DNA of 64,000 nt, from assembly GCF_002000985.1 (NCBI RefSeq), contig NZ_CP018822.1:1754001-1818000 (forward strand), read 5' to 3'. Shown here one piece after another: positions 9,834 through 60,446 of the stretch (its first letter is position 1; each line of letters starts with the position of its first letter). The position numbers and the translations under genes are program-made. Under the pieces are notes generated by a model. That model did not search any database. It was not told where the DNA came from and saw nothing but the letters and a program-made list of their open reading frames with translations. The DNA comes from Streptococcus gallolyticus subsp. gallolyticus DSM 16831. Its GTDB lineage: Bacteria > Bacillota > Bacilli > Lactobacillales > Streptococcaceae.

Positions 9834-9842
9834 AACACATAG

Positions 9843-9848
9843 ATTATA
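9843..9848 (-). promoter_or_regulatory. Extended -10 promoter of dinG, 9 nt before the start codon
   Basis: On the minus strand TGGTATAAT is an extended -10. Transcription starting about 7 nt downstream would leave only some 3 nt before the ATG at 9833. The -35 is weak. Confidence 0.65.
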
Positions 9849-9918
9849 CCACACTTGGCTGCTACTTGCGTAACGGATTTAAACTAGCTTTATCTTGGCT
9901 CAAAAAAATGTTCTATGT

Positions 9919-9924
9919 TATAAT
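9919..9924 (+). promoter_or_regulatory. Promoter of the esterase gene at 9956
   Basis: TTGGCT at 9895-9900 and TATAAT at 9919-9924, separated by 18 nt; this predicts a leader of about 25 nt. Confidence 0.6.
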
Positions 9925-9955
9925 GACTTTATAAATTTTCAGAAGCTAGGTGCTT

Positions 9956-10786
9956 ATGGTGAGAAAGACAAAATTAAACAACTATTACCTTGAAATGGTC
10001 GAACACAGCCTGTACGTTCCTTATTATGACGAAGAGCGACGCATTCGTGTTCTTCTTCCAAAAGATTACGATAAAGAAGAATGGGCAAGCTACCCTGTTC
10101 TTTACATGCACGATGGGCAAAATATTTTTTATAGCAAGGAATCATTCTCAGGCTATTCATGGAAACTTATCCCTACTATCAAGAATCACAAAGAGTTGCC
10201 GAAATTGATTGTCGTGGGGATTGATAACGCCCAAGATAATCGTCTTAATGAATACGCTCCTTGGATGACTGACGTTGGAACAACTCCTGAAACAGCTTCT
10301 GCTGGCGGAGACGGAATGGCTTACGGTGATTGGGTGGTAAATACCGTAAAACCTTTTATTGATAAAACTTATCGTACCAAGACAGACCGTCAAAATACGC
10401 TTCTTGCTGGTTCATCTATGGGCGGCATTATCACCGCTTATATGGGCGCGACCTATCCAGAGATTTTTGGAAATCTAGGTGTTTTTTCACTTGCTTCTTG
10501 GTTTAGTGAGCGTGACTTTTTACGTTTTTGTGACTCTCATCCACTGCATTCTGACAACAAAGTCTATATTCAAGTTGGAACAAAAGAAGGGGACGACGTT
10601 GATGAACAATTCGCCCCAAATATGAACCAAGCTTATATTGATTGCAGTTTGCACTACTACCAATCCCTACTACGTACAGGATTTCCAATGGAAAATGTAC
10701 AATTACGCATTATGGCAAATGAAATTCATCATGAAAAATATTGGGCTGATCATTTTGCCGAATTTCTACAATTTTGCCTTAATTAG
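9956..10786 (+). CDS. Alpha/beta-hydrolase, esterase D/Fes-like
   Basis: 276 residues counted from the ATG at 9956; a GTG at 9950 is the alternative. The fold and motifs match the putative-esterase family (esterase D, Fes, mycolyltransferase-like): LYMHDGQNIF near the oxyanion region, the nucleophile elbow GSSMGG (Ser about residue 150), and a late His in ANEIHHEKYW. Family members cleave small acyl or phenolic esters, thioesters or siderophore esters; the substrate here is unknown. No signal peptide. It converges on a second esterase and an ATP-grasp gene (10870-12866). Confidence 0.8.
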   Translation: MVRKTKLNNYYLEMVEHSLYVPYYDEERRIRVLLPKDYDKEEWASYPVLYMHDGQNIFYSKESFSGYSWKLIPTIKNHKELPKLIVVGIDNAQDNRLNEYAPWMTDVGTTPETASAGGDGMAYGDWVVNTVKPFIDKTYRTKTDRQNTLLAGSSMGGIITAYMGATYPEIFGNLGVFSLASWFSERDFLRFCDSHPLHSDNKVYIQVGTKEGDDVDEQFAPNMNQAYIDCSLHYYQSLLRTGFPMENVQLRIMANEIHHEKYWADHFAEFLQFCLN

Positions 10787-10831
10787 CACATGATTTATAA
10801 AACTCTAAATTCCTATAATGGCATAAACAAA

Positions 10832-10866
10832 CGAAGCTGAGATTTTTAGTCTCAGCTTCTTATTTT
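10832..10866. terminator. Bidirectional terminator between the two convergent esterases
   Basis: GAAGCTGAGA-TTTTTAG-TCTCAGCTTC, a 10-bp stem followed by a T-rich tail on + and an A-rich flank usable on -. Confidence 0.8.
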
Positions 10867-10869
10867 GTT

Positions 10870-11622
10870 TTATAATCTATTTTCTTCTTCCAATTTTCCG
10901 AGAAAATACGGCATTTGCACACGCCACCATTCCCAGTCATGGGCAACGTCTTTCCCCCAGAAATCAAACCAAGCAGGGATAGACTTGGCTGCAAAAACTT
11001 CCTCCAAACGCTTGATATCCAAAATATGGGGTTCTTCCCAAGCACCTTGACCAACAGCCACAATAAAACGATTATGACGATAATGGTCTAAAAACCAATC
11101 ATCTTCTTGATTCCAAAGATAGTCAATTGGTGAATTGTAATAAACAGCAAGGTCGCCATTATAATCACCCGTAAAAAAGCGAGCATCATAAACACCTGAA
11201 AGAGCAACAGCTACATCAAACAAATCAGGGTGACGAAGGGCAAAATTAACCGCATGAAAAGCTCCCATTGAGCAACCAGTCGCTAACATTCCACCTTGCC
11301 AGTTTGACTCGTAGCGAATCAGCGGTACCAATTCATTCACAATATAACGGTCATAAGCTTCGTGAGCGAGTGCTTTATCATGACCAGTTTTCCACGTATT
11401 AAGCCAAGACTCATTATCATAAGAATCTGGTGTGTAAAACCTGACCAATCCACGGTTAATAAAATCTTGACAAGCTTCAATCATGCCAAAATCCCCATAC
11501 TCATTTTGACTTCCGCCAGATGACGGAAAAACGATAATCGGCTTTCCAGCATGACCATAAACATTGAAAAACATTTCCTTACCAAGCTCACCTGACCAAT
11601 GGTTTCTTCTTTCAAAATGCAT
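10870..11622 (-). CDS. Alpha/beta-hydrolase, putative esterase
   Basis: 250 residues of the same putative-esterase family as the convergent neighbour, although the two are clearly diverged. IIVFPSSGGSQNEY opens the hydrolase core and ATGCSMGAFHAV is the nucleophile elbow (Ser about residue 115). The C-terminal stretch AHDWEWWRVQMPYF offers the catalytic His. No secretion signal. It is 65 nt downstream of an ATP-grasp gene on the same strand and probably shares its transcript. Substrate unknown; the combination suggests making and hydrolysing an amide- or ester-linked small molecule, which is inference. Confidence 0.8.
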   Translation of the reverse strand: MHFERRNHWSGELGKEMFFNVYGHAGKPIIVFPSSGGSQNEYGDFGMIEACQDFINRGLVRFYTPDSYDNESWLNTWKTGHDKALAHEAYDRYIVNELVPLIRYESNWQGGMLATGCSMGAFHAVNFALRHPDLFDVAVALSGVYDARFFTGDYNGDLAVYYNSPIDYLWNQEDDWFLDHYRHNRFIVAVGQGAWEEPHILDIKRLEEVFAAKSIPAWFDFWGKDVAHDWEWWRVQMPYFLGKLEEENRL

Positions 11623-11687
11623 TTTTTATCTTTCTGAACCCCTTAAAACGATATTTTTAAGGTTCTTCCTTTCAAATTTTTCTAATA

Positions 11688-12866
11688 TTAAGCCTTAGCT
11701 TGTGCGTATTGAGCCAGCTCACGCATCTCTTCAATCGTTTGAGTACGTGCCAAAATACCTTCTTCTCCCATAATCTTAGCAAACACTCCTGGAACAGATT
11801 GAATAGAAATGATGTTATCTCCAAAATTCGCCCAAATATCATCAATGCTATGAGCATAAGTTTGATTCGCTTTTCGAGAAATATAAACAACGTTATATGG
11901 TCGTAAGATTTCGGCTTCAAATAAATTATCCTTAACAATATTGGCATACTCGCGGAAAATATCAAAATCGTTAGAATAATTCCACATATCAATTGTTAGA
12001 CCACCTGGTGGACGACAGTTGACTTCAAGCGCCATAAGTTCTTTGGTTTCCTTGACACGGAAAAATTCAAAATGGAAAAAACGTTCTTTCACATGAAAGG
12101 CTTCCACACAAATTTTCCCTAATGCCACAAGGTCATCTGGAATGGTTCGAGGCACATAATAATACATATCATCGTCTTTTTCAACGGTATCCAAAACCGC
12201 TTCTGAATACTCCAAACTAGAATAAAAGACAATTTCCCCGTCATGGTCAGTCAGACCATCAAAAGTGACAATATCACCATCGATGAATTCTTCCATGATG
12301 TATTCTACCTTTGGATTTTGATAGCCAAAAAAGGCTTCAAGTTCTTCACTTGATTTTATCTTATGAGTATCCGAAGCACCCACGCCAGAATTTGGCTTGA
12401 TAATAACTGGAAAGCCCAATTTTTCAGCTAAAACTCGTGCTTCGTCATCAGAATGAAAAACATCCCCTGCTGCCACTTTCAATCCATGCTCACTAAAAAT
12501 TTTCTTCATTTGGCGTTTAGTTTTAACAGCTAACATATCATCTGTTTTATAGCCAAAAACATTAAAATCCGTGCGCAATTGAGCATCTAACTCTAACCAA
12601 TATTCATTATGCGATTCGATGCGGTCAATGCGCCCATATTTATGAGCGAAATAAGCTACCGCACGATAAACTTGGTCGTAATCTTCCATATTATCAACTC
12701 TATAATATTCCGTTAAATGGGCACGTAATCCCTCTGATAATTCATGATATGGAGCATCCGCTATTCCCAAGGTATGAAAACCAGCCTCATGCAAACGCAC
12801 AGCAAACGTTTCAAAATTAGCAGGAAAATGCGGAGAAATCATTACAAAATTCATTGGTCTTGACAT
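11688..12866 (-). CDS. ATP-grasp ligase-like protein (carbamoyl-phosphate synthase L-chain-like)
   Basis: 392 residues. An N-terminal Rossmann-like pre-ATP-grasp region is followed by an ATP-grasp core: GFPVIIKPNSGVGASDTHK (the nucleotide lysine and glycine loop), EEFIDGDIVTFDGL, and the metal-binding ALEVNCRPPGG (Glu/Asn) near residue 290. ATP-grasp enzymes join a carboxylate to an amine or thiol through an acyl-phosphate. Annotation as carbamoyl-phosphate synthase is misleading, since the other CPSase domains are absent. The start follows GAGAG, and it forms a unit with the esterase 65 nt downstream. Product unknown. Confidence 0.8.
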   Translation of the reverse strand: MSRPMNFVMISPHFPANFETFAVRLHEAGFHTLGIADAPYHELSEGLRAHLTEYYRVDNMEDYDQVYRAVAYFAHKYGRIDRIESHNEYWLELDAQLRTDFNVFGYKTDDMLAVKTKRQMKKIFSEHGLKVAAGDVFHSDDEARVLAEKLGFPVIIKPNSGVGASDTHKIKSSEELEAFFGYQNPKVEYIMEEFIDGDIVTFDGLTDHDGEIVFYSSLEYSEAVLDTVEKDDDMYYYVPRTIPDDLVALGKICVEAFHVKERFFHFEFFRVKETKELMALEVNCRPPGGLTIDMWNYSNDFDIFREYANIVKDNLFEAEILRPYNVVYISRKANQTYAHSIDDIWANFGDNIISIQSVPGVFAKIMGEEGILARTQTIEEMRELAQYAQAKA

Positions 12867-12944
12867 AATATTCTCTCAATTCTCAATTTTTCCTTAAGTT
12901 TATCATAATTTTAAGAACATATCTAGGAAGTTGTCCTAAAAATG

Positions 12945-13195
12945 AGAGCAGGGTTGTAAAACCTGATTTATCAGCGCATAAAAATCCACTCAATAATGAT
13001 TGATTGCTCAAATAATCAAGAATTGTTCGAGGTGGTAAATCTAGCTTGCAAAGTAAGCGTCAAAAAGTGCCTAATCAATTGTGCATGGGAAACTCTAAGT
13101 TGACTAAAGTTGGTAATCGCTGGTTTAATATTTCTTGGCAGCGACCTTCAATAATCGATTCTCAGATTGTTAACGTCCAAACCACTGCTTTCTTC
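12945..13195. repeat. Degenerate copy of a modular intergenic repeat
   Basis: The 418-nt gap 12867-13284 has no credible gene. Much of 12945-13195 matches the better copy at about 50380-50516: shared blocks include the segment with CTGATTTATCAGCGCAT, one with TGCCTAATCAATTGTGCATG, one with AACTCTAAGTTGACTAAAG, and CCAAACCACTGC. Between shared blocks this copy has different filler (about 13006-13065 and 13113-13180), and several hairpin partners of the other copy are missing. I read it as a decayed member of one family. Confidence 0.7.
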
Positions 13196-13272
13196 TCCTT
13201 GCTAGAGAAAGTGATTATTGGTATCAACTCATTGTCGCATTTCACAAATATGACTTTTAGCCAAATTTTTGA

Positions 13273-13278
13273 TACACT
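13273..13278 (+). promoter_or_regulatory. Promoter placing the transcription start at the MBL-hydrolase ATG
   Basis: ATGACT (13250-13255), 17-nt spacer, extended -10 TGATACACT. The expected +1, 7 nt past the -10, coincides with the ATG at 13285. Confidence 0.65.
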
Positions 13279-13284
13279 TTTTTT

Positions 13285-13920
13285 ATGAAGACTTTTAGAT
13301 TATTAAATCACGTTGCACGTGAAAATACTTATTTATTGGTCAATGACCAAGGCATTATTGTTGTTGATCCAGGTAGTGATGTTGACCATATTCAAGAAAA
13401 GATTGCCTCATTTGATAAACCAGTTGTGGCAATTTTAATCACACATGCTCATTATGACCATATTATGGGGCTTGATGTCATTCGTGACGCTTTTGGACAC
13501 CCACCTGTTTACATTTCTGATAAAGAAGCGTCTTGGCTTTATTCGCCGAAAGATAATTTTTCAGGTTTGGAGCGCCATGCGGATTTGCCAGATGTTGTCT
13601 TAGCGCCTGCCGAACATCATTATCAGTATGATGATGATTATCAAATCGCTGGTTTTCGTTTTCATGTTCGTCAAACGCCTGGACATTCCTGCGGTAGTGT
13701 TTCCTTAGTATTTCCAGATGACGAATTGGTTTTAACTGGCGATGCTCTTTTTCGTGAAACAATCGGACGCACAGATTTGCCAACGGGAAATTCTGAACAA
13801 TTACTAAATAGTATAAAAACTGAACTTTTCAGCTTGCCAAATCATTTCATGGTTTACCCTGGTCACGGTCGTGAAACGACTATTGCCCACGAGAAGAATT
13901 TTAACCCATATTTTAACTAG
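13285..13920 (+). CDS. MBL-fold metallo-hydrolase (glyoxalase II-like)
   Basis: 211 residues with the metallo-beta-lactamase-fold metal ligands THAHYDH at 53-59, the later His in TPGHSCGS, the bridging Asp in TGDALF, and the final GH in YPGHG. The family includes hydroxyacylglutathione hydrolases; the substrate is not fixed by these motifs. No Shine-Dalgarno is present and a -10 box lies 6 nt before the ATG, so the transcript is probably leaderless. The next gene begins 2 nt after the stop, so the two are coupled. Confidence 0.88.
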   Translation: MKTFRLLNHVARENTYLLVNDQGIIVVDPGSDVDHIQEKIASFDKPVVAILITHAHYDHIMGLDVIRDAFGHPPVYISDKEASWLYSPKDNFSGLERHADLPDVVLAPAEHHYQYDDDYQIAGFRFHVRQTPGHSCGSVSLVFPDDELVLTGDALFRETIGRTDLPTGNSEQLLNSIKTELFSLPNHFMVYPGHGRETTIAHEKNFNPYFN

Positions 13921-13922
13921 CC

Positions 13923-14639
13923 ATGAAAAAAATCAAGAAATTTACTTTAAGTTTCCTTCTGATTATTGCTACTCTAATTGCCATTAGTGGAGTGGTACTT
14001 CATCAAAAAACTTACCAAGCAAGTTCAGAAGCACAGACAGCTGCTAAAACTGCCGAAAGTACAAAAGATTATCTGTTTTTTCAAAGTTCTGGCACCGCTA
14101 AAGCTAGTATTGTTTTTTACCAAGGCGCTCTCGTCGAGGAAACAGCCTACGCAAGTTTCGCAAAAAACTTAGCGCAAGAAGGTTTTGACGTTTATCTCTT
14201 AAAAACACCTTTGAATCTGCCAGTTTTATCAAGCAACAAAGCCTTAAAAGTGATTGCGAAAAACAATCTCTCCAATGTTTACCTAGCTGGACATTCACTA
14301 GGTGGCGTTGTTACCTGCTTAAATGCCGCTGATTCTGAGTCTCAAGCCATTTCTGGGCTTATTCTACTTGCAAGCTACCCATCCGAAAAAACTGACTTAT
14401 CAGATAGTGATTTAAAAGTCCTATCAATCACTGCTAGCAATGATAAGGTGCTGCAATGGGACAATTACGAAAAAGCTAAAAAACGCCTCCCTGACGATAC
14501 CGAATACTTGACTATCGTCGGTGGTAATCACAGTGGTTTTGGCGATTACGGCAAACAAACCAAAGACGGTAAAGCAACCATTTCCCAAACAGAACAAGAA
14601 AACCAAATCATTTCAGCCATTACTAATTTTATTGATTAA
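13923..14639 (+). CDS. Membrane-anchored alpha/beta-hydrolase
   Basis: 238 residues. An N-terminal hydrophobic helix (about 8-27) anchors or exports it. The rest has a compact alpha/beta-hydrolase fold: FYQGALVEETAY, nucleophile elbow GHSLGG (Ser about 122), late Asp in TASNDKV and a final His in GGNHSGFG. It resembles alpha/beta-hydrolase fold-5 proteins. It starts 2 nt after the MBL-hydrolase stop with no ribosome binding site of its own, which suggests translation by re-initiation. A strong terminator follows at once. Confidence 0.8.
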   Translation: MKKIKKFTLSFLLIIATLIAISGVVLHQKTYQASSEAQTAAKTAESTKDYLFFQSSGTAKASIVFYQGALVEETAYASFAKNLAQEGFDVYLLKTPLNLPVLSSNKALKVIAKNNLSNVYLAGHSLGGVVTCLNAADSESQAISGLILLASYPSEKTDLSDSDLKVLSITASNDKVLQWDNYEKAKKRLPDDTEYLTIVGGNHSGFGDYGKQTKDGKATISQTEQENQIISAITNFID

Positions 14640-14673
14640 AAAATGCCCTTCTGAAATATCAGAAGGGCATTTT
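14640..14673. terminator. Bidirectional terminator between the hydrolase operon and ftsX
   Basis: AAAATGCCCTTCTGA-AATA-TCAGAAGGGCATTTT, a perfect 15-bp stem that terminates both converging units. Confidence 0.9.
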
Positions 14674-19020: not shown

Positions 19021-19026
19021 TACAAT
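19021..19026 (+). promoter_or_regulatory. Promoter placing +1 at the metallophosphoesterase ATG
   Basis: Extended -10 TGCTACAAT ends 6 nt before the ATG at 19033, so the predicted start of transcription is the start codon. No clear -35. Confidence 0.6.
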
Positions 19027-19032: not shown

Positions 19033-19890
19033 ATGACAAAACTAGCTATTATGAGTGATTTACATATCGATTTGAATCAGTTTGATGATTTTGAAATCCA
19101 GACACTCATTGACACATTAAACGCAGAAAAAATTTCTCATCTGCATTTGGCTGGGGATATTTCCAACCATTTTTATGACATCTCTTACCCATTTTTAGAA
19201 ACAATGAGCAAACATTTTGACGTTACTTATAATCTCGGAAATCATGATATGCTTGACTTAGATGACAAGGTCATTGATGATTTAGATTTTCAGATTATTC
19301 CGTTGGGGCAAAAGACACTCTTGGCTTTTCATGGTTGGTATGATTATTCCTTTTTCCCAGAAAAATCTGAAGCTGAAACAATCAAATTTAAAAATACTTT
19401 CTGGTTTGATCGACGTTTAAATCGCAACTTTTCCGACAAAGAACTCACGCACCAAACAACACAAAAACTCGATAGAACTTTATCAACGATTGCCAATGAC
19501 GTGATTGTCAGTCTGCATTTTGTACCACATTACCAATTTACCTTGCAACATGAGCGTTTTAAACCATTTAATGCTTTTTTAGGTAGTCAAGTTTTTCATG
19601 ATATTTTCAAAAAACATCAGGTTAACAACGTGATTTTTGGGCATACTCATCATAGTATCGCTTCGCAGCAAATTGACAATATTACTTACCATGCTAAACC
19701 GCTTGGTTATATCCGCGAGTGGGATTTGACTATTGATTATGTCAATCAACACCCCGAACTCAACCCAAATCAGACCTGGAATCTTAGCAAACGCTACAAC
19801 ATTGTCAAAAAACTTGATGACTTTACTGATTACAAACGTCAAAATTTGGCACAAGAATTCCGAAAATCCATGACTATTTTTGAATTATAA
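19033..19890 (+). CDS. Calcineurin-like metallophosphoesterase
   Basis: 285 residues. Di-metal phosphoesterase motifs are complete: SDLHID at 8-13, GDISNH, GNHDM, the His in SLHFVPH, and GHTHHS. The class hydrolyses phosphomono- or diesters; the cytosolic substrate here is not evident. There is no Shine-Dalgarno, and the -10 lies immediately upstream, so the mRNA is probably leaderless. It ends at a strong terminator shared with the converging P-type ATPase gene. Confidence 0.88.
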   Translation: MTKLAIMSDLHIDLNQFDDFEIQTLIDTLNAEKISHLHLAGDISNHFYDISYPFLETMSKHFDVTYNLGNHDMLDLDDKVIDDLDFQIIPLGQKTLLAFHGWYDYSFFPEKSEAETIKFKNTFWFDRRLNRNFSDKELTHQTTQKLDRTLSTIANDVIVSLHFVPHYQFTLQHERFKPFNAFLGSQVFHDIFKKHQVNNVIFGHTHHSIASQQIDNITYHAKPLGYIREWDLTIDYVNQHPELNPNQTWNLSKRYNIVKKLDDFTDYKRQNLAQEFRKSMTIFEL

Positions 19891-23448: not shown

Positions 23449-24327
23449 CTAACGTTTAATGGCAGATGAGCGAAGTAAACTTGTTCCTGTGAAAAGAGCA
23501 ATAAAGACAATCAAAATTTTAAAATGATTAATATCAAGTTTGCTCAAGAAAAATGCTGCTGTCAGAACACCAAAAGAACCACCGATAATAATTCCTAAAA
23601 CACCAGGCCAGTTGACACGCCCAGACTTAATAAAATCTGTCGTACTCGCTGACATGATAACTGCTGCATCAAGCATCATCACAGGCAGTGCAACTGACGG
23701 ATTAATACCCAACATTGAGAAAAAGATTAACTCTGGTGCATAATTTCCTAGCCCCATTGTCATCAAAATACCAACCGTAAAATTAAACATCACTCCGACA
23801 AGAATCCAAATACCATGTAAGCCATGAGCACTTTCAGAAATATTAGTACCAGGATTGGCAATCAGTCGGTAAACCATAATGAATGCTGCAACAATTAACA
23901 GAATTCCCAAAACACGTTGGACTTGGCGTGTGTTCCAATTTTTAGTTATTCGTGTTCCTACAAATGCTCCTAAAAAAGATGCCATGGCCATAGCAAATAA
24001 AGTGGTCAAGTCAACCTCAACAATGGTAATAAAGCAAAGCGCTTCAATCAAAACAGGAATAATATGCGCTGTCGATAGGGTTGCAGGGATTTTTTTATCA
24101 TCTTCAACCAGTTTTGTCGCTTTAAAAAGTGCTATACTCGTTGCAAAGGTTCCAATCCCTAGCGTATCTAATAAATCTGTCACGTAACCAATCCATAGCC
24201 CCGTCCAGAATTTTTCCTTTAAATTAATGCCATGCTTTTTAGCATTTACCAGAATATTTCCCATTGTCCAAAAGATGAGAAAAATCAAAAAAAGTTGAAT
24301 TATACGAAGAATAAGTTCATTTGTCAT
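23449..24327 (-). CDS. TSUP-family (TauE/SafE) membrane permease
   Basis: About 292 residues with eight likely membrane spans in two homologous halves, typical of the sulfite exporter TauE/SafE family. Members move sulfite, sulfonates or organic anions; the cargo here is not defined. I place the start at the ATG at 24327 (MTNELILR). The longer reading from 24336 would begin inside the -10 box TATAAT (24335-24340). This leaves essentially no 5' leader and no Shine-Dalgarno. It is divergent from the HD hydrolase gene, which is also apparently leaderless. Confidence 0.85.
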   Translation of the reverse strand: MTNELILRIIQLFLIFLIFWTMGNILVNAKKHGINLKEKFWTGLWIGYVTDLLDTLGIGTFATSIALFKATKLVEDDKKIPATLSTAHIIPVLIEALCFITIVEVDLTTLFAMAMASFLGAFVGTRITKNWNTRQVQRVLGILLIVAAFIMVYRLIANPGTNISESAHGLHGIWILVGVMFNFTVGILMTMGLGNYAPELIFFSMLGINPSVALPVMMLDAAVIMSASTTDFIKSGRVNWPGVLGIIIGGSFGVLTAAFFLSKLDINHFKILIVFIALFTGTSLLRSSAIKR

Positions 24328-24334
24328 AGTCAAC

Positions 24335-24340
24335 ATTATA
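24335..24340 (-). promoter_or_regulatory. Promoter of the TSUP permease gene
   Basis: Minus strand TTTACG (24358-24363), 17-nt spacer, TATAAT (24335-24340); the ATG at 24327 is 7 nt beyond the -10. Confidence 0.65.
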
Positions 24341-24404
24341 AATCAAATCCAAGTATTCGTAAATATCCCAAACCTTCAAAAATCAGCTTTACAAAGTTTT
24401 TTGT

Positions 24405-24410
24405 TATAAT
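24405..24410 (+). promoter_or_regulatory. Promoter of the HD hydrolase gene
   Basis: Extended -10 TGTTATAAT; the ATG at 24417 is 6 nt beyond it, so +1 falls on the start codon. Confidence 0.65.
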
Positions 24411-24416
24411 GAAAGT

Positions 24417-25718
24417 ATGAATGAAAAAGTATTTCGTGACCCTGTTCACAACTATATAACTGTCAATCATCAGGTCATTTACGACCTTATCAATAGTAAA
24501 GAGTTTCAGCGCCTACGACGGGTCAAACAAGTTTCGACAACTGTTTTCACCTTTCATGGTGCAGAACACAGCCGCTTCTCACACTGTTTAGGGGTTTACG
24601 AGATTGCAAGACGTGTGACTGAAATTTTTGATGACAAATTTCCTGATATTTGGAATTCTGATGACAATCTCTTAACGATGGTGGCTGGGCTTTTACATGA
24701 TGTCGGACATGGTGCTTATTCACACACTTTTGAAAAACTCTTTGATACCGACCACGAAGCCGTTACACAAGAGATTATCACCAGTCCAGATACTGAAATC
24801 AATACTATCTTGCGTCGTGTCTCGCCTGATTTTCCAGAAAAAGTCGCTAGTGTTATCAACCACACTTATCATAATAAACAAGTTGTCCAACTCATTTCTA
24901 GCCAAATTGACTGTGACCGTATGGACTACCTTTTGCGCGATTCTTACTATAGCGGCGCTAATTATGGTCAATTTGACTTGAATCGCATTCTACGTGTGAT
25001 TCGCCCAACCGAAGACGGTATTGTTTTTGAATACAATGGCATGCACGCCGTTGAGGACTATATTGTCAGTCGTTTTCAAATGTATATGCAAGTGTATTTT
25101 CACCCTGCTAGCCGCGGAATGGAAGTATTGTTACAAAATCTTTTAAAGCGCGCAAAATACCTTTACCAAACTGATACCGATTTCTTTGAAAGAACATCAC
25201 CAAATCTGATTCCATTTTTAGAAAATCATGCTAACTTAGCTGATTATCTTGCTTTAGATGATGGGGTGATGAATACCTATTTTCAAACTTGGATGACTGC
25301 TGAAGATGAGATTTTGGCTGATTTGGCAAGCCGTTTTGTCAATCGTAAAGTCTTTAAATCGGTGACTTTCGAAGAATCGTCACGCAAAGAACTCAGTCAC
25401 CTTGTTGACCTTGTCAAATCTGTTGGCTTTGACCCTGATTATTACACAGGCATCCATGTCAATTTTGACTTGCCTTATGACATTTACCGTCCTGAAAAAG
25501 AAGAACCAAGAACCGAGATTAACATGATTCAAAAAGACGGCTCTGTTGTAGAATTATCAACAATTTCACCAATCGTCAAAACCTTAACGGGTACTATTTA
25601 TGGCGATAGACGATTCTATTTTCCAAAAGAAATGCTAGTTGATAACGACCTATTTGCTGTTGATAAGAAAGCCTTTATGAGCTATATTTCAAACGAACAT
25701 TTTGTTTATCATAATTAA
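24417..25718 (+). CDS. HD-domain phosphohydrolase (dNTPase/YwfO-like)
   Basis: 433 residues. Metal-binding HD motifs are clear: HSRFSHCLGVYEIAR near residue 56, LLHDVGHGAYSH near 95, and a later Asp in SSQIDCDRMDYLLRD. This matches the SAMHD1/dGTPase-like superfamily; Bacillus YwfO-type relatives hydrolyse (d)NTPs. The opening MNEKVFRDPVHNYI is characteristic. No ribosome binding site can fit between the -10 and the ATG. A 135-nt gap separates it from the Cof-Fem operon. Confidence 0.88.
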   Translation: MNEKVFRDPVHNYITVNHQVIYDLINSKEFQRLRRVKQVSTTVFTFHGAEHSRFSHCLGVYEIARRVTEIFDDKFPDIWNSDDNLLTMVAGLLHDVGHGAYSHTFEKLFDTDHEAVTQEIITSPDTEINTILRRVSPDFPEKVASVINHTYHNKQVVQLISSQIDCDRMDYLLRDSYYSGANYGQFDLNRILRVIRPTEDGIVFEYNGMHAVEDYIVSRFQMYMQVYFHPASRGMEVLLQNLLKRAKYLYQTDTDFFERTSPNLIPFLENHANLADYLALDDGVMNTYFQTWMTAEDEILADLASRFVNRKVFKSVTFEESSRKELSHLVDLVKSVGFDPDYYTGIHVNFDLPYDIYRPEKEEPRTEINMIQKDGSVVELSTISPIVKTLTGTIYGDRRFYFPKEMLVDNDLFAVDKKAFMSYISNEHFVYHN

Positions 25719-34368: not shown

Positions 34369-34435
34369 AGATTCCCCTACATACATTCGAGTTTATCATA
34401 TGCCATTATATCATCTTTCGACCCTAAAAAAAAGT

Positions 34436-40038: not shown

Positions 40039-40044
40039 TAAAAT
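40039..40044 (+). promoter_or_regulatory. Promoter of the GH25 lysozyme gene
   Basis: TTGATT (40016-40021), exact 17-nt spacer, TAAAAT (40039-40044); the ATG at 40052 is 7 nt beyond, predicting a leaderless mRNA. Confidence 0.7.
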
Positions 40045-40051: not shown

Positions 40052-40948
40052 ATGAGAAGACGAATAAAACCCATTGTTGTTGTAGTTTTCTTTGCCCTCT
40101 GTGGGCTACTTCTCGTGATTGGTAAAGCTCACTCAGATAGCTTACAAAAGCAACAACTAGCTTCAGCTAAGGATTCTATTCCAACTGTGAGTAGCACGAG
40201 TACTACCACTACATCAACTTCTGAAACTGATGAAGATTTTGTTCTTAATCCGATTATTGATATCTCAGGTTGGCAACTTCCAAGCGAAATTGACTATGAT
40301 ACTTTATCTCAGAATATTTCTGGTGCTATCGTTCGTGTTTATGGAGGGTCACAAATCAGTAAAGATAGCAATGCCGCCTATACAACTGGTATTGATAAAT
40401 CATTTAAGACACATATCAAAGAATTACAGAAACGAAATGTTCCTGTAGCCGTTTATAGCTACGCTCTCGGTACAACCGTCAAGGAGATGAAGGAGGAAGC
40501 AAAAACTTTCTATGAGAATGCTTCACCTTACAGTCCAACATTCTATTGGATTGATGTTGAAGAGGCGACTATGTCTGACATGAATAAAGGTGTACAGGCT
40601 TTCTTAAAAGAGCTCAAAAAACTCGGTGCGGAAAATGTCGGTATCTACATTGGAACTTATTTCATGGATGAACAAGAAATTTCCGTGGATGGTTTCGATG
40701 CAGTGTGGATTCCTGCTTATGGTTCTGACACTGGTTATTACGATGCTGCGCCACAAACTGATTTGGACTATGACCTCCATCAATACACCTCACAAGGTTA
40801 CATCAATGGTTTTAGTTCACCACTTGACTTAAACCAAATTGCCGTCACAAAAGATACGAAAACAACGTACGAAAAACTTTTCGGTACAACAAGTACCTCA
40901 AGCAGTAGCACGTCAAGTTCAAGCAGTACAACAAGTAGTAGCAAATAA
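40052..40948 (+). CDS. Exported GH25 lysozyme (muramidase)
   Basis: 298 residues. Basic N-terminus plus a hydrophobic helix (about 7-25) for export or anchoring, a Ser/Thr-rich linker (44-58), then a glycoside-hydrolase 25 barrel starting at IIDISGWQ (catalytic-type Asp 70) with the acidic pair in FYWIDVEEA near residue 170. It ends in a low-complexity Ser/Thr tail of about 25 residues. It should cleave the glycan strand of peptidoglycan outside the membrane. No Shine-Dalgarno. A second wall hydrolase gene follows after a terminator. Confidence 0.88.
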   Translation: MRRRIKPIVVVVFFALCGLLLVIGKAHSDSLQKQQLASAKDSIPTVSSTSTTTTSTSETDEDFVLNPIIDISGWQLPSEIDYDTLSQNISGAIVRVYGGSQISKDSNAAYTTGIDKSFKTHIKELQKRNVPVAVYSYALGTTVKEMKEEAKTFYENASPYSPTFYWIDVEEATMSDMNKGVQAFLKELKKLGAENVGIYIGTYFMDEQEISVDGFDAVWIPAYGSDTGYYDAAPQTDLDYDLHQYTSQGYINGFSSPLDLNQIAVTKDTKTTYEKLFGTTSTSSSSTSSSSSTTSSSK

Positions 40949-41081: not shown

Positions 41082-41087
41082 TATAGT
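41082..41087 (+). promoter_or_regulatory. Promoter -10 of the amidase gene
   Basis: TATAGT 6 nt before the ATG at 41094, no Shine-Dalgarno; the weak -35 inside the palindrome suggests activator dependence or repression. Confidence 0.5.
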
Positions 41088-41093: not shown

Positions 41094-42080
41094 ATGCCAA
41101 CAAGAAATTATTCACGTAGAAAACGACAACAAAAATCTCAAATAATAACAATAGCTGGGCTTGTCACGGCAGCAGTCGCACTTGTCCTAATTCTCGCTAA
41201 ACTGATTTTTTCAGGAGTCACAACTTTAGCTTCAGACGGAAGTTTGGATTTATCAAATGCCAATTCTTATGACGTTTCCGAAACAGCTACGGTCTCTACT
41301 TCTGACGCTGTTATGTATACTAACGATGGTTCTAGCAGCAAAATTAGTGAAAATACTGCGATTACAATCAGTGCCTATTACTATGATGCGACGCTCGATG
41401 ACGAAGATATCACCTTAGCTCAATTTAGCATGAACGGTGATACTTACTATATCGACACGAATGATATTTCGCTTGAGCAGGATAATACTATTAATGCTTA
41501 TATCGTTGAAACACTTGGTTATTCGCACACTGATATTACCGATGACATTGAAAGTAGTTTTGAACAAGCCGCTTATAAGACAGATGACGGAAAACCTCTT
41601 GGGGTAATTATTCATGATACTGGCGTTGACAATTCAACGATTGAAAGCGAAGTGAATTATATGGTTCAAAGTTATGATGAAGAAGGTGTCTTTGTCCACT
41701 CTTTCATTGATAGTGATACCATTCTTCGCATTGCTGATGAAGATTACAAAGCTCAGGGTGCTGGTGCCAATGCCAATCCTTATTACATTCAATTTGAATT
41801 AACACATGAGGATTCTCAAAAAGGCTTCGCCGAGCAACTAGCAAACGCAGCTTATTATACTGCCTACATGCTCAAAAAATATGACCTTCCTGTAACACTT
41901 GGTCAAGAAGATGGCGAAGGAACCATTTGGACACATGAAATGGTCAGCCTTTACCTTGGTGGTACTGACCACGTTGATCCAACTGATTACTGGACAGAAA
42001 CCGCTAATGATTATTTCGGTACGGACTATGACGTCGAAGATTTTGTCGAACTCGTCCAAGCTTATTATAATGCTCTCTAA
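41094..42080 (+). CDS. Membrane-anchored N-acetylmuramoyl-L-alanine amidase (amidase_2-like)
   Basis: 328 residues if started at the ATG at 41094 (MPTRNYSRRKRQQ); the longer frame from 41016 runs through the palindrome and promoter. A very basic N-terminus is followed by a membrane helix (about 20-42), an SH3-like or linker region (to about 155) and an amidase_2-type domain. That domain shows GVIIHDTG, VFVHSFID and WTHEMVSLYLGGTDHVDPTDYW, matching zinc ligands and end motif. It should cut between muramic acid and the stem peptide. Apparently leaderless, like the lysozyme gene before it. Confidence 0.78.
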   Translation: MPTRNYSRRKRQQKSQIITIAGLVTAAVALVLILAKLIFSGVTTLASDGSLDLSNANSYDVSETATVSTSDAVMYTNDGSSSKISENTAITISAYYYDATLDDEDITLAQFSMNGDTYYIDTNDISLEQDNTINAYIVETLGYSHTDITDDIESSFEQAAYKTDDGKPLGVIIHDTGVDNSTIESEVNYMVQSYDEEGVFVHSFIDSDTILRIADEDYKAQGAGANANPYYIQFELTHEDSQKGFAEQLANAAYYTAYMLKKYDLPVTLGQEDGEGTIWTHEMVSLYLGGTDHVDPTDYWTETANDYFGTDYDVEDFVELVQAYYNAL

Positions 42081-52713: not shown

Positions 52714-53640
52714 TTACTTCACTTCCTCTGGATCAAATTCATAGAATCCAGTTCCAAGTGTGCGACCTTTTGGATGTAATTTACGAATTTCTTCATCCAA
52801 TAAGAAAGCTTGGTCTTGTGTAAATTCAGCTGCTTCAATCAATTCTTTAGCTTTGACAAAGCATTTAACAATCTCAACAAAATCATGCCCTGGACAATAA
52901 ATACCGTCCAATTTCCAATGAGTGAAATTATGGTCAGTTAACTCTGTCAATTTTGGCATCATATCAAGATCATCAGTATCAAAAATATGTGTGCCATGTT
53001 TATCCTCAAAAATTGAGTAATGAGAGTCTTTATTGCTTGGTTCAGCAAGGAAAAGACCACGCTCACGTGTTTTTTCATCATCATTATGCGTAAAATTGTA
53101 ATAATTTTGCAATAATGGACGTTTTGAATGATGAATGACAGTAGCTCCGTAAACAAGCACTTCAGCTGGGTAGCGAAGATTTTCTGACATTTTGAACAAT
53201 TCGACCGACGGGATTTCACGAGCAAGAACGACTTCACTAGCGCCATGGTCTCCCCAGAAATTCACTTGACGACTTGATGTTACAAAAACAGAAACATCAT
53301 AAATCATCTTGAAATCGTAGCCTTCATTTTTATTGATGTGAAAAACACCTGCATCTCCTGCTACTAGATAATCGGCTTTAATATCTTTCAAAAAATCAAG
53401 ATATGGGCGAACCGCATTAATCATATCTTGGTGCAACAAAGCATTGCAAGCGATACTTAGTTCTTTTCCAGCATCATGAACTAGCTTAGCGATTTCAGAA
53501 AGTTCATCATAAGTAAAATTATGAGGCAAACGTAAACCATAGTTTTCCTCACCCACATAAATACGATCAACACCTGCATCTAAAAGCTCTTTGACCTGCT
53601 CAATAGATTCAGCTGTCGCAGTAATAATTATTTTTTCCAT
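52714..53640 (-). CDS. trhP1: Second U32 family protein, TrhP1-like
   Basis: 308 residues, matching the shorter partner (YrrN/TrhP1) of the tRNA hydroxylation pair. The barrel begins IIITATAESIEQVKELLDAGVDRIYVGEENYGLRLP. VYGATVIHHSKRPLLQNYY replaces the cysteine cluster of trhP2, so this subunit lacks the metal-site cysteines. The -10 box TATAAT lies 9 nt before the ATG and no Shine-Dalgarno is present, so the message is probably leaderless. The 131-nt gap to trhP2 holds a 9-bp hairpin (52657-52665 with 52686-52694). Confidence 0.85.
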   Translation of the reverse strand: MEKIIITATAESIEQVKELLDAGVDRIYVGEENYGLRLPHNFTYDELSEIAKLVHDAGKELSIACNALLHQDMINAVRPYLDFLKDIKADYLVAGDAGVFHINKNEGYDFKMIYDVSVFVTSSRQVNFWGDHGASEVVLAREIPSVELFKMSENLRYPAEVLVYGATVIHHSKRPLLQNYYNFTHNDDEKTRERGLFLAEPSNKDSHYSIFEDKHGTHIFDTDDLDMMPKLTELTDHNFTHWKLDGIYCPGHDFVEIVKCFVKAKELIEAAEFTQDQAFLLDEEIRKLHPKGRTLGTGFYEFDPEEVK

Positions 53641-53649: not shown

Positions 53650-53655
53650 ATTATA
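53650..53655 (-). promoter_or_regulatory. Extended -10 promoter of trhP1, 9 nt before the start codon
   Basis: Minus strand GTGACT (53673-53678), 17-nt spacer, TGGTATAAT. An inverted repeat CTATAACAAT (53662-53671) with ATTGTTATAG (53698-53707) has one arm in the spacer and may be an operator. Confidence 0.6.
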
Positions 53656-55426: not shown

Positions 55427-56209
55427 TTATTCCTGATAATACGGAACATCTTTCTGTTTTCTTCTCCAGATAACCAAGACCACACCAATCAAAACGAGTA
55501 GAGCAGAAAGCCATTGCGATACTCGAATTCCGAGTAACATTAGACTATCTGTCCGCATTCCTTCGATGACAAAACGCCCACAACCATACCAAATGAGGTA
55601 AAAGAAGGCAATTTCACCTTGTTTGAAGAAACGTGGTCGGTGTCTTAGGCTCATGACAATCACAAATCCTAATAAATTCCACAATGATTCATATAAAAAT
55701 GTCGGAACACGATACGAACCATCAATATACATCTGGTTCTTGATAAAATCTGGTAGGTAATTCAGATTATCTACTATTTTACCATAAGCTTCTTGATTTA
55801 TGAAATTTCCCCATCGTCCAATAGCTTGCGCAATCATGACACCAGGTGCTGCAATGTCCAAAAAATCGAGTGGATTGATTGCTCGGTAATAAGAAAAAAC
55901 AAACAATACGATTGCTCCTGTAATCAAGCCACCGTAAATAGCAAGGCCACCGTTCCAAATGGCAACTATTTCGCTCAATGGCTGATTAGCATAATAAGAC
56001 CAATCAAAAATGACATAATAAACACGAGCACCAATAATCGCAAGTGGGAATGCAATTAAAATAAAATCTAAAATATCATCAGGAATTATCTTCCGACGCG
56101 GTGCTTCTTTCATCGCTAAATAAACAGCAAGAAGTAACCCTGAAACAATGAAAATCGCATACCAACGAATACTAATAGGACCTAACTGGATAGCAACTGG
56201 ATCAATCAT
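55427..56209 (-). CDS. lgt: Prolipoprotein diacylglyceryl transferase
   Basis: Membrane enzyme that attaches diacylglycerol to the lipobox cysteine of prelipoproteins. 260 residues, seven membrane helices. The Lgt signature [13 protein letters not shown] is present (residues near 130-145), as are [11 protein letters not shown] and the late [16 protein letters not shown]. The ATG overlaps the hprK stop (TAATG). The order hprK-lgt is a conserved Firmicutes pair. Confidence 0.96.
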
Positions 56210-57138
56210 TAGTCCTCCTCGTTTTGGCTAATAAGCTGAGTGAGGCGGTCCTCAAATGTCTTAGTTGCATCAAATCCCATTTGTTTAGCACGGTAGTTCA
56301 TGGCTGCTGCTTCAATAACGACTGACACGTTACGTCCTGTTTTTACTGGGATACGCACGCGCGGAATTTTTACACCAGATAACTCGATTTCTTCGTTACT
56401 ATTTCCTAAGCGGTCAAAGATTTTATCTGATTCAAAATTCTCTAAGTAAATTGCCAATTGAACTTGTGATGAATCTTTAACAGCGCTAGCACCGTACAAG
56501 CTCATCACGTCAATGATACCAACACCTCGAATTTCAAGCAAATGACGGAGAATTTCTGCGGGTTCACCCCAAAGTGTTTCCTCGTCTTTGGCAAATACAT
56601 CGACACGGTCATCAGCCACCAAGCGGTGACCACGTTTGACTAATTCAAGACCAGTTTCACTTTTACCAATTCCTGAATCACCTTGAATTAAAACTCCCAT
56701 ACCGTAAATATCCATGAGAACACCATGAACGCTAGTGCGTTCGGCAAGGCAAGAATCCAGATACCATGACATTTCACCAGATAAACGACTTGTTGGCACA
56801 TGACTTTGCAAGACAGCAATGCCTTTTTCTTTAGCAGCTGCCAACATTTCATCTGGAATGGCTAGATTACGCGCCACAATAATGGCAGGTGTCTCTGGCT
56901 TAATCATTTCTGTCAAAACTTGATGACGATTATGTGATGACATTTTGGTAAGATAAGACCACTCTTTCATCCCTAGCAATTGCAGGCGTTCCGGCGAATA
57001 ATAATCAAAATAACCTGTCATCTCAAGCCCAGGTCGTGAAATATCTGACGTTGTAATTTCTTTAGCTAATAAGTCATCATCACCGTAGATAACATCTAGC
57101 TTGACCTTGTCCACCAACATTTTTACAGTAACCGACAT
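56209..57138 (-). CDS. hprK: HPr kinase/phosphorylase
   Basis: Phosphorylates and dephosphorylates HPr at Ser-46 and so drives CcpA catabolite repression. 309 residues from the ATG at 57138 ([11 protein letters not shown]), chosen by family length. An in-frame ATG four codons earlier (57150) is nearer the GAGGTG site and remains possible. Walker [10 protein letters not shown] near residue 152, the signature [17 protein letters not shown] and the HGVLMDIYG catalytic His are intact. It links to the cre site at rhaB elsewhere in this window. Confidence 0.96.
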
Positions 57139-57370
57139 TTGATGTACCATGAACCATTTACCAATCACCTCGTGACTGTGTAAATAAATTGAAAATTTTA
57201 GAAAATAAGCTTGACTAAACCACAAGCTATTTTCAGTTTATCATCAATTTTTGTTCAATCCTTTTCCTCTTTTTTTCATTATTATATCACATTAACCTGC
57301 AAAAGTAAGCGCTCACGCAGACTTATTCAAAAATATTGTCAATTTCCTGCTAATAAAAAGCTACCAAATC

Positions 57371-57402
57371 AAAAGCCCAGAACAATCATGCTCTGAGCTT
57401 TT
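57371..57402 (-). terminator. Terminator of the PspC-domain gene
   Basis: AAAAGCTCAGA...TCTGGGCTTTT hairpin reading leftwards, 83 nt past the stop. Confidence 0.75.
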
Positions 57403-57484
57403 CCTGTTTTGAAAGACCTTTATAAGTTCCTGTTATCCCTATAAGTGTCAAGTTTTTGCTACATTGAAGTTGAACTGTCAGTTT

Positions 57485-57763
57485 TTACCAAAACCAACCG
57501 TCGTTGTCGTCATCTTCGTCAACGACTTCAGCATCCTTACGTCGGCGTGGTCCCGTTCCATAATGGTCGCGAGTGATATCTTCTTTGTAAGGAAGAAAAA
57601 TTGCTAAAAGAATATAAATGACAATGCCAAAGCCATAAAAATACATCAGCAATGCTGTCAGGACACGCGTCAAAGGCAAGTCCCAACCAAACTTATCAGC
57701 AATTCCGGCACAGACACCACAAACCAGTTTATTTTTTCGCTGTTTATAAAGAGCTGATTTCAT
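57485..57763 (-). CDS. PspC-domain membrane protein
   Basis: 92 residues. The PspC fold opens KQRKNKLVCGVCAGIADKFGWDLPLTRVLTALLMYFYGFGIVIYILLAIFLP, with one or two membrane helices, then a basic RRRK stretch and an acidic tail of Asp/Glu ending WFW. PspC proteins take part in phage-shock or envelope-stress sensing in other bacteria; in streptococci the role is open. AAGGGAC lies just before the ATG. Single gene. Confidence 0.85.
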   Translation of the reverse strand: MKSALYKQRKNKLVCGVCAGIADKFGWDLPLTRVLTALLMYFYGFGIVIYILLAIFLPYKEDITRDHYGTGPRRRKDAEVVDEDDDNDGWFW

Positions 57764-57868
57764 TTTAGTCCCTTCCTTCTTTTTATCTCACTATGATTAT
57801 TATACCTAATCGCCCTTAAAATAAAATCAGTCCTACGACTGATTTTATACTGAAGAAAAAATGTTTCT

Positions 57869-58312
57869 CTAAATTTCTTGATTTTTGATTTCTAAGAGCT
57901 TGCCGTGGCAACGTCCACAACGGTATTTTTGGGTATTGACACGACGTTTTCGGTGATAGTCTTGTCCACATTTTTGGCAACGGTATAGGTATTTTTCCGT
58001 CTTTTGGGGCATGGCTGGCGCGTAACGCAGACCATCAACTGCTTTCAATAATGCTTTAAAATCGGCATCAGCGTGCTTATAGCCTTTTCCCTCAAAATAC
58101 AAATGATAATGGCAAAGCTCATGGCGAACAATTTTTCGAAAAACGTCAACACCAAATGCTTCATAAATCTTGGGATTAAAATCCAAATGCCCATCAGCTG
58201 GGAAAAAACGACCACCTGTTGTCCGCAAACGTGGATTCCAAACTGCCGTGTGGCGAAATTCTTTTCCGAAATCTTCTCGTGAGACTGTTTTGATAAAATT
58301 AGTTAAGTTCAC
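57869..58312 (-). CDS. sprT: SprT-like zinc metalloprotein
   Basis: 147 residues. The zinc-protease motif HELCHYH at about 63-69 lies in an SprT domain ([31 protein letters not shown]). A C-terminal zinc ribbon has CQKCGQDY and CGRCHGK. Eukaryotic Spartan relatives digest DNA-protein crosslinks; the bacterial role is unproven. The start is a GTG at 58312 inside the last codons of tex, a 14-nt overlap, so the two are translationally coupled. Confidence 0.9.
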
Positions 58313-60431
58313 GTAAGTCTACCAAGGAAAGATTGATTTTTCCGCGTTCCTTATCGATTTTTGAAACCCAAACCGTCACAACGTCTCCGACAGAAACCAC
58401 TTGACTTGGGTGTTTGACAAAGGACTTGCTCATTTGTGAAATATGAATCAAACCGTCATCATGCAAACCAATATCAACAAATGCACCAAAATCAACGACA
58501 TTGCGGACAGTTCCTTCTAATTTTTGCCCAATTTCAAGGTCTGAAATATCCAAAACATCTTGGCGGAGCACAGGTGCTTCAAAATCATCACGCAAATCAC
58601 GCCCTGGTTTTAAGAGGTCAGCGATAATATCTTTAAGCGTTTCTTGCCCGATATTAATGGTTTCAGCCATCGTTTCAATTGAAACAGATTGCAGTTTTGT
58701 TTTTGCTGAATCATCTAAATCTGTGATATTTAATTCTTTCAATAAACGTTCAACGGCTTTATAAGACTCTGGGTGAACGCCTGTATTGTCAAGGATATTT
58801 TCTGCCCCTGGAATACGCAAGAAACCTGCTGCTTGTTCAAAAGCCTTAGCTCCCAGACGTGGAACTTTTTTGATTTCTTCACGCGAAGCAATTCGTCCAT
58901 TTTCATCACGGTATTTGACAATATTTTCAGAAATTGTTTTATTTAATCCTGAAACGTGGGCTAATAGCGCGGGGCTTGCTGTATTGATATTAACACCAAC
59001 TTGGTTAACAACGGTATCTACAACAAAATCAAGGTTTTCGGCAAGTTTTTTCTGACTAACGTCGTGCTGATATTGTCCGACACCAATTGATTTTGGATCG
59101 ATTTTAACCAATTCTGCAAGTGGGTCTTGCAAACGACGCGCAATGGAAATAGCAGAGCGTTTTTCAACGGTCAAATCTGGAAACTCGTGACGTGCCAATT
59201 CAGATGCGGAATAGACAGAAGCTCCGCTTTCATTGACAATCACGTAAGAAACATCTGGAAAATCTTTCAAAACTTGTGCCACAAAGGCTTCACTTTCACG
59301 GCTAGCAGTCCCATTTCCGATAGCAATAATCTCAACACCATATGTGCGAATGAGCTCTGCTAAATCTTTTTTCGATTGCTCGATTTTAGCCTGACTAGCT
59401 GGCGGAACAGGATAGATAACTTGGGTAGTCATCAATTTTCCTGTTTGGTCAACAACAGCTAACTTAGCTCCTGTACGAAAGGCTGGGTCAAATCCTAACA
59501 CCATTTTTCCTTTCAAAGGAGACACCAAAAGGAGATTGCGAAGATTTTCTGAGAACAGTTCGATTGCACCATCCTCTGCACTTTCTGTTAACTCACTGTG
59601 AACACGGCGTTCCATAGCAGGAACGATTTTTTTCTTAATCGTTCCTGCGATGACATCATCAATATAAGCATTTTTATTTTTAAAACGAGCTCCCATGAAG
59701 CGCACCATTTTATCAATGTTATGCTCGAAACCAACTTTTAAAATACCGAGTTTTTCACCACGATTAAGTGCCAAAATACGATAACCTTGGATTTTAGAAA
59801 CTTTCTCTGAAAAATCATAGTAAATTTGGAAGGTTTTATTATCATCGGCAGCTTCGTCTTTAACTGTTGATATGATTGAGCTGTAAGACCAGATTTCATT
59901 GTAAACCCATGAGCGGAGCTTGTTGTCCTCCGAAAAAGCTTCAATAAGAATTTCACAAGCGCCAGCAAGTGCCTTGTCAGCTGTTTCAAACCCTTCTGTT
60001 ATAAAATTCGCTGCTTCTACTTCAAGCGAAGGCTTATTTTGCAAAATTAAACGAGCTAGTGGAAATAGCCCTGCTTCTCTGGCGATAGTGGCTTTAGTAC
60101 GACGTTTTTCCTTGTAAGGAAGATAAAGTTCCTCAACGTCTGCCAACTTTTCAGCGTTCTCAATAGCTTTTTTGAGTTCCGCAGTAAGCTTACCTTGTTC
60201 TTCAATTTTAGCAAGAACAGTCGCTTTACGGTCTGCTAAAGCTGTCATGCTTTTATCCAAGTCAATGATAGCTTTAATTTGTACTTCATCCAAATTACCT
60301 GTCATTTCCTTACGGTAACGAGCAATGAAAGGAATGGTATTCCCTTGTGAAGTCAAGTCTAGAACTTTGGCAATTTGGCTCTCTTTGATGTTTAAATCTT
60401 GAGCAATTTTTGTTACATTTTCATTTTCCAT
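58299..60431 (-). CDS. tex: Tex-family RNA-binding transcription accessory protein
   Basis: 710 residues. Helical N-terminal region, a YqgF/RuvC-like domain ([18 protein letters not shown], about 325), helix-hairpin-helix modules ([30 protein letters not shown]) and a C-terminal S1 RNA-binding domain ([34 protein letters not shown], about 640-705). Tex binds RNA and RNA polymerase and affects expression of many genes, including toxins. The -10 TATAAT ends 9 nt before the ATG; AGAAG lies between but is too close to the predicted 5' end to act normally. Confidence 0.94.
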
Positions 60432-60440
60432 AGTGCTTCT

Positions 60441-60446
60441 ATTATA
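60441..60446 (-). promoter_or_regulatory. Extended -10 promoter of tex
   Basis: Minus strand TGATATAAT ending 9 nt before the ATG at 60431; predicted leader about 3 nt. Confidence 0.6.

Follow-up and report, generated by a model that had tools for sequence, protein, structure and literature searches.

The leaderless habit of streptococci, in which messages begin at or next to the start codon, has already been described and is conserved, not new. In the published start-site maps, Streptococcus agalactiae has 78 leaderless mRNAs (8%), all with AUG starts and 90% beginning at the A (PMC4448216). In S. pneumoniae, 81 of 768 operons have leaders too short for a Shine–Dalgarno (SD) sequence, 70 of them starting exactly at the first base, and a pbp2A reporter was translated efficiently without a ribosome-binding site (RBS) (PMC6212727). 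In S. pyogenes 8.6% are leaderless, with 54 common to S. agalactiae, 39 of these also shared with S. pneumoniae (PMC6431027). Recognition of a 5′-terminal AUG is established elsewhere (cited in PMC4448216 and PMC6431027). Here we analyse nine genes of Streptococcus gallolyticus subsp. gallolyticus DSM 16831 that carry a −10 box directly before the start codon and no SD sequence. They lie in a stretch of 64,000 nucleotides (nt), hereafter the window, spanning positions 1,754,001–1,818,000 of a single 2,492,900-base contig (G+C 37.6%). The nine are very probably ordinary members of the streptococcal leaderless class, with no common switch indicated.

The mapped streptococci resemble the present genes in their AUG starts, in starting at or next to the A and in conservation between species; they are, however, other species, and their 5′ ends are mapped, those of the present genes being predicted from sequence. 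On a wider scale, Zheng et al. 2011 (PMC3160421) place leaderless genes in the Lactococcus–Streptococcus and Oenococcus–Leuconostoc groups and not in Enterococcus or Lactobacillus, with TG before the Pribnow box and an excess in information-processing COG categories. For Enterococcus faecalis and E. faecium, less than 1% of mRNAs are reported as leaderless, one of them for a DNA polymerase III subunit, with no functional theme (PMC7724050).

Anatomy of the nine start regions

The genes and their boxes are listed below in window coordinates.

7350..9833, minus strand: dinG, exonuclease and helicase (Pfam RNase_T, Helicase_C_2)
9843..9848, minus strand: dinG −10 box TATAAT, preceded by TG-n, 9 nt to the ATG at 9833
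13273..13278, plus strand: MBL −10 box TACACT, preceded by TG-n, 6 nt to the ATG at 13285
13285..13920, plus strand: MBL-fold hydrolase (Pfam Lactamase_B)
19021..19026, plus strand: phosphoesterase −10 box TACAAT, preceded by TG-n, 6 nt to the ATG at 19033
19033..19890, plus strand: metallophosphoesterase (Pfam Metallophos)
23449..24327, minus strand: TSUP permease (Pfam TauE)
24335..24340, minus strand: TSUP −10 box TATAAT, 7 nt to the ATG at 24327; TTTACG 17 nt upstream
24405..24410, plus strand: HD −10 box TATAAT, preceded by TG-n, 6 nt to the ATG at 24417
24417..25718, plus strand: HD-domain hydrolase (Pfam HD)
40039..40044, plus strand: GH25 −10 box TAAAAT, 7 nt to the ATG at 40052; TTGATT 17 nt upstream
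40052..40948, plus strand: GH25 lysozyme (Pfam Glyco_hydro_25)
41082..41087, plus strand: amidase −10 box TATAGT, 6 nt to the ATG at 41094
41094..42080, plus strand: N-acetylmuramoyl-L-alanine amidase (Pfam Amidase_2)
52714..53640, minus strand: U32 family protein, called trhP1 in the preliminary description (Pfam Peptidase_U32)
53650..53655, minus strand: trhP1 −10 box TATAAT, preceded by TG-n, 9 nt to the ATG at 53640
58299..60431, minus strand: tex (Pfam Tex_YqgF, Tex_N)
60441..60446, minus strand: tex −10 box TATAAT, preceded by TG-n, 9 nt to the ATG at 60431

All nine genes start with AUG, and the −10 box lies 6–9 nt before it at the positions and spacings that a preliminary description of this DNA had given. 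Its other anatomical claims were also borne out: TG-n precedes the box in six genes (dinG, MBL, phosphoesterase, HD, trhP1 and tex), and the kinds of protein it named agree with the Pfam matches. The finer name trhP1 is its own, the protein being a Peptidase_U32 member; TrhP1 has a role in tRNA modification. Anti-SD pairing energies of the nine range from −2.8 to +2.2 kcal/mol, in keeping with the reported lack of an SD sequence, and 34 of the 55 called genes in the window lie at −5 kcal/mol or lower. Upstream of the TSUP and GH25 boxes, TTTACG and TTGATT each agree with TTGACA in four of six bases. The MBL and amidase boxes are off-consensus.

Other candidates in the window fared less well. 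The Cof gene (25854), described earlier as a borderline member, has an SD sequence of its own (−6.5 kcal/mol). Of 30 genomes, 29 have the gene SD-led and the last falls below threshold, so it does not form a tenth member. A caller-marked start at 12854 (gap 10, weak box) was discounted, and at 34386 the motif-bearing ATG is followed a few codons downstream by a better, SD-led ATG. The divergent genes TSUP and HD, whose ATGs are separated by only 89 bases (24328–24416), are both leaderless-type. The closest named match of DinG, among five named loci, is from Streptococcus gallolyticus at 96% identity, in a comparison that may omit the records closest to the window; a megablast search against plasmids gave no match.

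Excess over chance in the genome

The preliminary description had proposed a genome-wide count, and the result favours its reading. The genome contains 81 copies of the strict motif, TGNTAYAAT-N6-9-ATG, and 14 of the control, in which the pattern is reversed. Without TG the signal is less specific: TATAAT-N5-10-ATG is only mildly in excess in the same genome (273 versus 199), and the membership of TSUP, GH25 and the amidase therefore rests on conservation. A coding match was defined as a frame of at least 50 codons with a positive coding score; 45 of the 81 strict sites open such a frame, at spacings of 6 (30 sites), 7 (11), 8 (none) and 9 (4). The own-genome catalogue includes pbp2A and holA, which the S. 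pneumoniae and S. agalactiae papers name as leaderless (PMC6212727, PMC4448216). Elsewhere in the genome, at about 1,985,200–1,985,300 (locus L280), a second divergent pair with strict motifs, YaaA-like and YiiX-like, lies within about 100 bases.

A looser box at 6–9 nt precedes 11 of the 47 ATG-start genes in the window (the nine, Cof and 34386). Internal in-frame ATGs match it in 48 of 2,084 cases, which predicts 1.1 against the 11 seen, a comparison biased upward because start picking gives preference to motif-bearing ATGs. At the published average of 78 per 2.21 Mb, a stretch of 64 kb would hold 2.3, and the Poisson probability of nine or more is 0.0006, uncorrected for the choice of window. 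The claim that nine in about 63 genes is far more than expected thus stands against chance and against the published average; it does not extend to a clear clustering of the strict motif, for which the window has five sites and the expectation is 2.1 (P = 0.06). Over 39 bins of 64 kb the strict motif is spread in a near-Poisson manner (variance/mean 1.2), with one bin of seven and two others of five. Comparison of open reading frames had suggested local clustering, with 11 of 47 ATG-start genes in the window versus 11 of 302 in other parts of the genome (20 stretches sampled; Fisher P = 2e-5), but this is unreliable because the sampled stretches lose their end genes, start picking favours the motif, and Cof and 34386, both among the 11, are false. 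The strict-motif map gives local clustering no support.

Conservation across Streptococcus

Start regions of orthologs, in Streptococcus genomes and with the own genome included throughout, were read and then scored as leaderless-type, SD-led, both or neither. For dinG we used the 30 best of 59 genomes, for the other genes one fixed set of 30. The arrangement is retained across the genus: it was found in 30 of 30 tex orthologs, 29 of 29 for trhP1, 29 of 30 for dinG (the remaining one also has an SD sequence) and 27 of 30 for HD (two SD-led, one both). The phosphoesterase is leaderless-type at 17 of 17 loci, representing 16 genomes (14 of the 30 genomes had no gene at the limit used), GH25 in 24 of 30 (one both) and TSUP in all seven orthologs found beside HD. 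The amidase has the arrangement at five of five evaluable loci beside GH25, its own included. In 28 further genomes unused before, dinG has an extended −10 box 5–10 nt from the ATG in every case; the 59th genome (G015, in pieces) was left out. By inspection, the upstream sequence differs among most species while the position of the box relative to the ATG is kept. The GH25 start region (L186–L215), which lacks TG-n, is unusually conserved: most of its 30 loci share a −35 stretch similar to TTTTGATTTTTT and opening codons of the ATGAGAA kind.

Control starts from seven neighbouring genes gave three leaderless-type calls among 104 evaluable. Of these, 82 starts yielded two leaderless-type calls and one both, and trhP2 contributed one in 22 after filtering (15 SD-led, six neither). 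Unfiltered, trhP2 had been leaderless-type in 12 of 29, at first contrary to our reading; matches below 50% identity were removed as likely matches to its paralogue trhP1. One control gene (57869) overlaps its upstream gene and is a weak control.

Several observations weigh against the leaderless reading. MBL is leaderless-type in only 12 of 29 orthologs, with 16 SD-led and one neither; five GH25 orthologs score as neither; and the amidase relatives are few and distant, the other four loci having 32–40% identity. Because the scorer selects the highest-scoring motif around the predicted start, it carries a mild motif bias, which the control genes gauge. In the 28 held-out genomes, the dinG box is scattered, at spacings of 8 (nine genomes), 9 (seven), 5 (six) and 10 (three). 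Conservation in other streptococci, as the preliminary description had envisaged it, is thus found for seven genes, thinly for the amidase (five loci) and only in part for MBL.

Could TATAAT-like words simply precede ATG anyway in an AT-rich genome, with nine of them picked out? The mild excess of TATAAT lacking TG and the off-consensus MBL and amidase boxes would fit this. It is nevertheless extremely unlikely, given the excess once TG-n is included (81 versus 14) and an arrangement kept across the genus despite differing upstream sequence, with 3 of 104 in the control genes; for eight of the nine, all except the amidase, the ortholog data refute it. Misplaced start codons, with true starts downstream or promoters upstream of a usable RBS and the boxes serving other starts, do occur, at plsX (an SD-led ATG 8 codons on) and at 34386 in the window. 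For the nine we consider them very improbable. Ortholog alignments begin at this ATG or no more than a few codons from it, and from species to species the box shifts together with the ATG; where relatives of MBL and HD are SD-led, they keep this start codon and have a leader in front of it. A leaderless set is well supported by its anatomy, by genus-wide retention and by the published start sites mapped in S. agalactiae, S. pyogenes and S. pneumoniae.

Spacing and predicted transcription start

In the proposed arrangement, a promoter for the housekeeping sigma factor, in most cases an extended −10 one, would abut the coding region, so that RNA polymerase would start at the A of the AUG (spacing 6–7) or about 3 nt earlier (spacing 9, at a purine 7 nt past the −10 box). 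Such a message would have no room for an SD sequence and would probably be translated by the leaderless route, through recognition of its 5′-terminal AUG. For dinG, trhP1 and tex, with a spacing of 9, a leader of about 3 nt, not zero, is likeliest. Spacings in the first ortholog sets (n = 168) were 5 (one case), 6 (66), 7 (45), 8 (nine) and 9 (47); these counts come from related sequences and are not independent. The base before the A of the ATG is C or T in 63 of the 66 spacing-6 cases, which fits a start site there, and at spacing 9 a pyrimidine–purine step lies at the predicted start in 40 of 47.

These figures might suggest that dinG, tex and trhP1 form a sub-class of their own, whose leader is always 3 nt long (before the ATG, a purine followed by two further bases, the second of them T), the other genes having none. 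Spacing 8 is rare between 7 and 9 (9 of 168, against 45 and 47) and absent from the 45 coding matches of the own genome, and T precedes the ATG in 46 of 47 spacing-9 spacers versus 36 of 66 at spacing 6 (P = 7e-8, from related sequences). Against this, the held-out dinG genomes have spacing 8 more often than 9, as well as 5 and 10, and the published maps place 90% (S. agalactiae) or 70 of 81 (S. pneumoniae) starts exactly at the A. We regard such a sub-class as doubtful, and a spacing rule of 0 or 3 nt fails in the held-out set. All seven spacing-9 genomes there do have the pyrimidine–purine step and the T, and several of the spacing-8 and spacing-10 spacers could still yield a leader of about 3 nt, although this is an after-the-fact reading. 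With spacings of 5–10 nt, the exact dinG start is uncertain in these genomes. In six of them (L369 and L374–L378) dinG begins ATGATG, with the −10 box 5 nt before the first ATG, and either ATG could lead the message.

Distribution among lineages

A motif of the TG-n-TATAAT type, TGNTATAAT-N6-7-ATG, was counted on both strands against a control. In 26 Streptococcus genomes it occurs 1,028 times versus 76 (13.5-fold; median 40 per genome), and in 33 genomes of other Lactobacillales families 207 times versus 149 (1.4-fold; median 7). Other genera of the Streptococcaceae, denoted here g31 to g38, differ among themselves: 160 versus 2 in g31 (two genomes), 357 versus 9 in g37 (five), 420 versus 23 in g38 (six) and 112 versus 16 in g32 (four), set beside 15 versus 8 in g34 (two), 5 versus 1 in g36 (one) and 4 versus 2 in g33 (one). 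The −10-against-ATG arrangement is thus a trait of part of the Streptococcaceae. Genera g31, g37 and g38 have 64–83 strict-motif sites per genome versus 23–50 in Streptococcus.

Among 20 genomes of other Streptococcaceae genera (of 37 with a match), the tex gene is leaderless-type in g32 (4 of 4), g38 (4 of 4) and g37 (4 of 6, the remaining two unclassified) and SD-led in g31, g34 and g36 (2 of 2 each); outside the family, where 48 genomes had a match and 39 were examined, it is SD-led in 38 and neither in one. All these tex calls rely on whichever SD sequence or box scored best around the predicted start, and the SD calls include some weak ones. Genus g31 is rich in sites, yet tex is SD-led in both of its genomes. 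The lineage pattern agrees with the split between Lactococcus–Streptococcus and Enterococcus/Lactobacillus in Zheng et al. 2011 (PMC3160421), and the enterococcal value of less than 1% fits the near-control counts of the sampled outgroups (PMC7724050).

Switching between leaderless and SD-led starts

In SD-led relatives of MBL, a −10-like box can often be recognized, separated from the ATG by a segment that carries the SD sequence (L156, L157 and L161), and HD has the same pattern at L120 and L137. The MBL orthologs (L146–L168) mix both modes within one gene and form a natural test pair.

Functional bias and the question of shared control

The 45 coding matches correspond to 41 genes, five of them in the window, after removal of plsX and of matches inside essC, pgk and gltX. 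Eight of the 41 serve DNA replication or repair (RecX, HolA, UvrC, MutS2, TatD, PolA, RuvB and DinG) and 11 RNA modification (an RluA family member, RlmB, TsaE, RsmH, RsmD, a PrmC/TrmN-like methyltransferase, RsmJ-like, RlmI-like, MnmL/YtqA, a second RlmB-like protein and TrhP1); Tex and an FtsK-like protein, recognized by eye, were left out of these counts. The classes were assigned after the gene list had been seen, and some family matches lie below curated cut-offs, partly because the stretches end at 301 residues. For the background, 60 genes were drawn at random out of 287 (seed 7) and truncated at 600 residues; the E-value limit was 1e-15 there and 1e-10 or 1e-8 for the set.

Repair and RNA-modification genes make up 19 of the 41 strict-motif genes versus 2 of the 60 random ones (topB and MnmE; Fisher P = 1.7e-7). 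Two set members rest on the laxer limits, L249 (PrmC best, TrmN close behind) and L268 (RsmJ-like); without them the contrast is 17 of 41 versus 2 of 60 (P = 1.7e-6), and with Fmt, D-aminoacyl-tRNA deacylase and RNase Y added to the background count it becomes 17 of 41 versus 5 of 60 (P = 1.4e-4). Dropping the 18 background proteins lacking a family match gives 19 of 41 versus 2 of 42 (P = 1e-5). Against 16 hand-picked core-like background genes, it falls to 19 of 41 versus 1 of 16 (P = 0.005) or 17 of 41 versus 1 of 16 (P = 0.011). Zheng et al. 2011 (PMC3160421), pooling all bacteria, found COG A, B and K over-represented and J under-represented, whereas the bias here concerns DNA repair and rRNA/tRNA modification in one genome. 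No published statement of such a bias in streptococci was found in a search whose coverage excluded most subscription papers.

The mixture of nucleic-acid enzymes and hydrolases pointed out in the preliminary description is, then, a small sample of a genome-wide bias, but one that bears on function and not on regulation. Its suggestion of shared control at initiation found no support: the boxes are ordinary extended −10 or −35/−10 elements, and MBL is SD-led in 16 of 29 orthologs. No shared element beyond the sigma boxes was seen by eye in the upstream listings, no motif search having been run. Common regulation is not indicated, given the ordinary boxes, the near-even spread over the genome and the changes of mode of MBL and tex between relatives.

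A translational regulon, in which conditions favouring leaderless messages (cold, or altered initiation factors or ribosomes) raise the repair and RNA-modification enzymes together, could draw on the 19 of 41 versus 2 of 60, and PMC6431027 speculates about common regulation of conserved leaderless transcripts. We judge it improbable: the classes were assigned with the list in view, the contrast shrinks against core-like genes, adding an RBS to the leaderless pbp2A reporter in S. pneumoniae reportedly caused no change (PMC6212727), and MBL and tex switch mode between relatives. Still further-reaching is the idea that leaderless expression in part of the Streptococcaceae marks a class of genome maintenance and rRNA/tRNA modification and acts as a feedback circuit in which ribosome quality sets the supply of these enzymes. 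RsmH, RsmD and others modify the ribosome near the initiation site. In such a circuit, the messages for ribosome-modifying enzymes would themselves be translated according to the condition of this site; we hold this to be highly unlikely.

Biological meaning

For the nine genes as ordinary members of the streptococcal leaderless class, the likeliest use of the arrangement would be to express housekeeping enzymes in a plain constitutive manner. In streptococci, leaderless starts can be recognized in the sequence with few false calls. The arrangement belongs to part of one family, and the results warn against hunting for an RBS in housekeeping genes of this kind. MBL, HD and tex offer natural pairs of relatives that differ in mode, one copy being leaderless and the other SD-led. 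Were the bias towards repair and RNA modification truly regulatory, it would matter more; it is this functional bias, together with the natural switch pairs, that is worth following.

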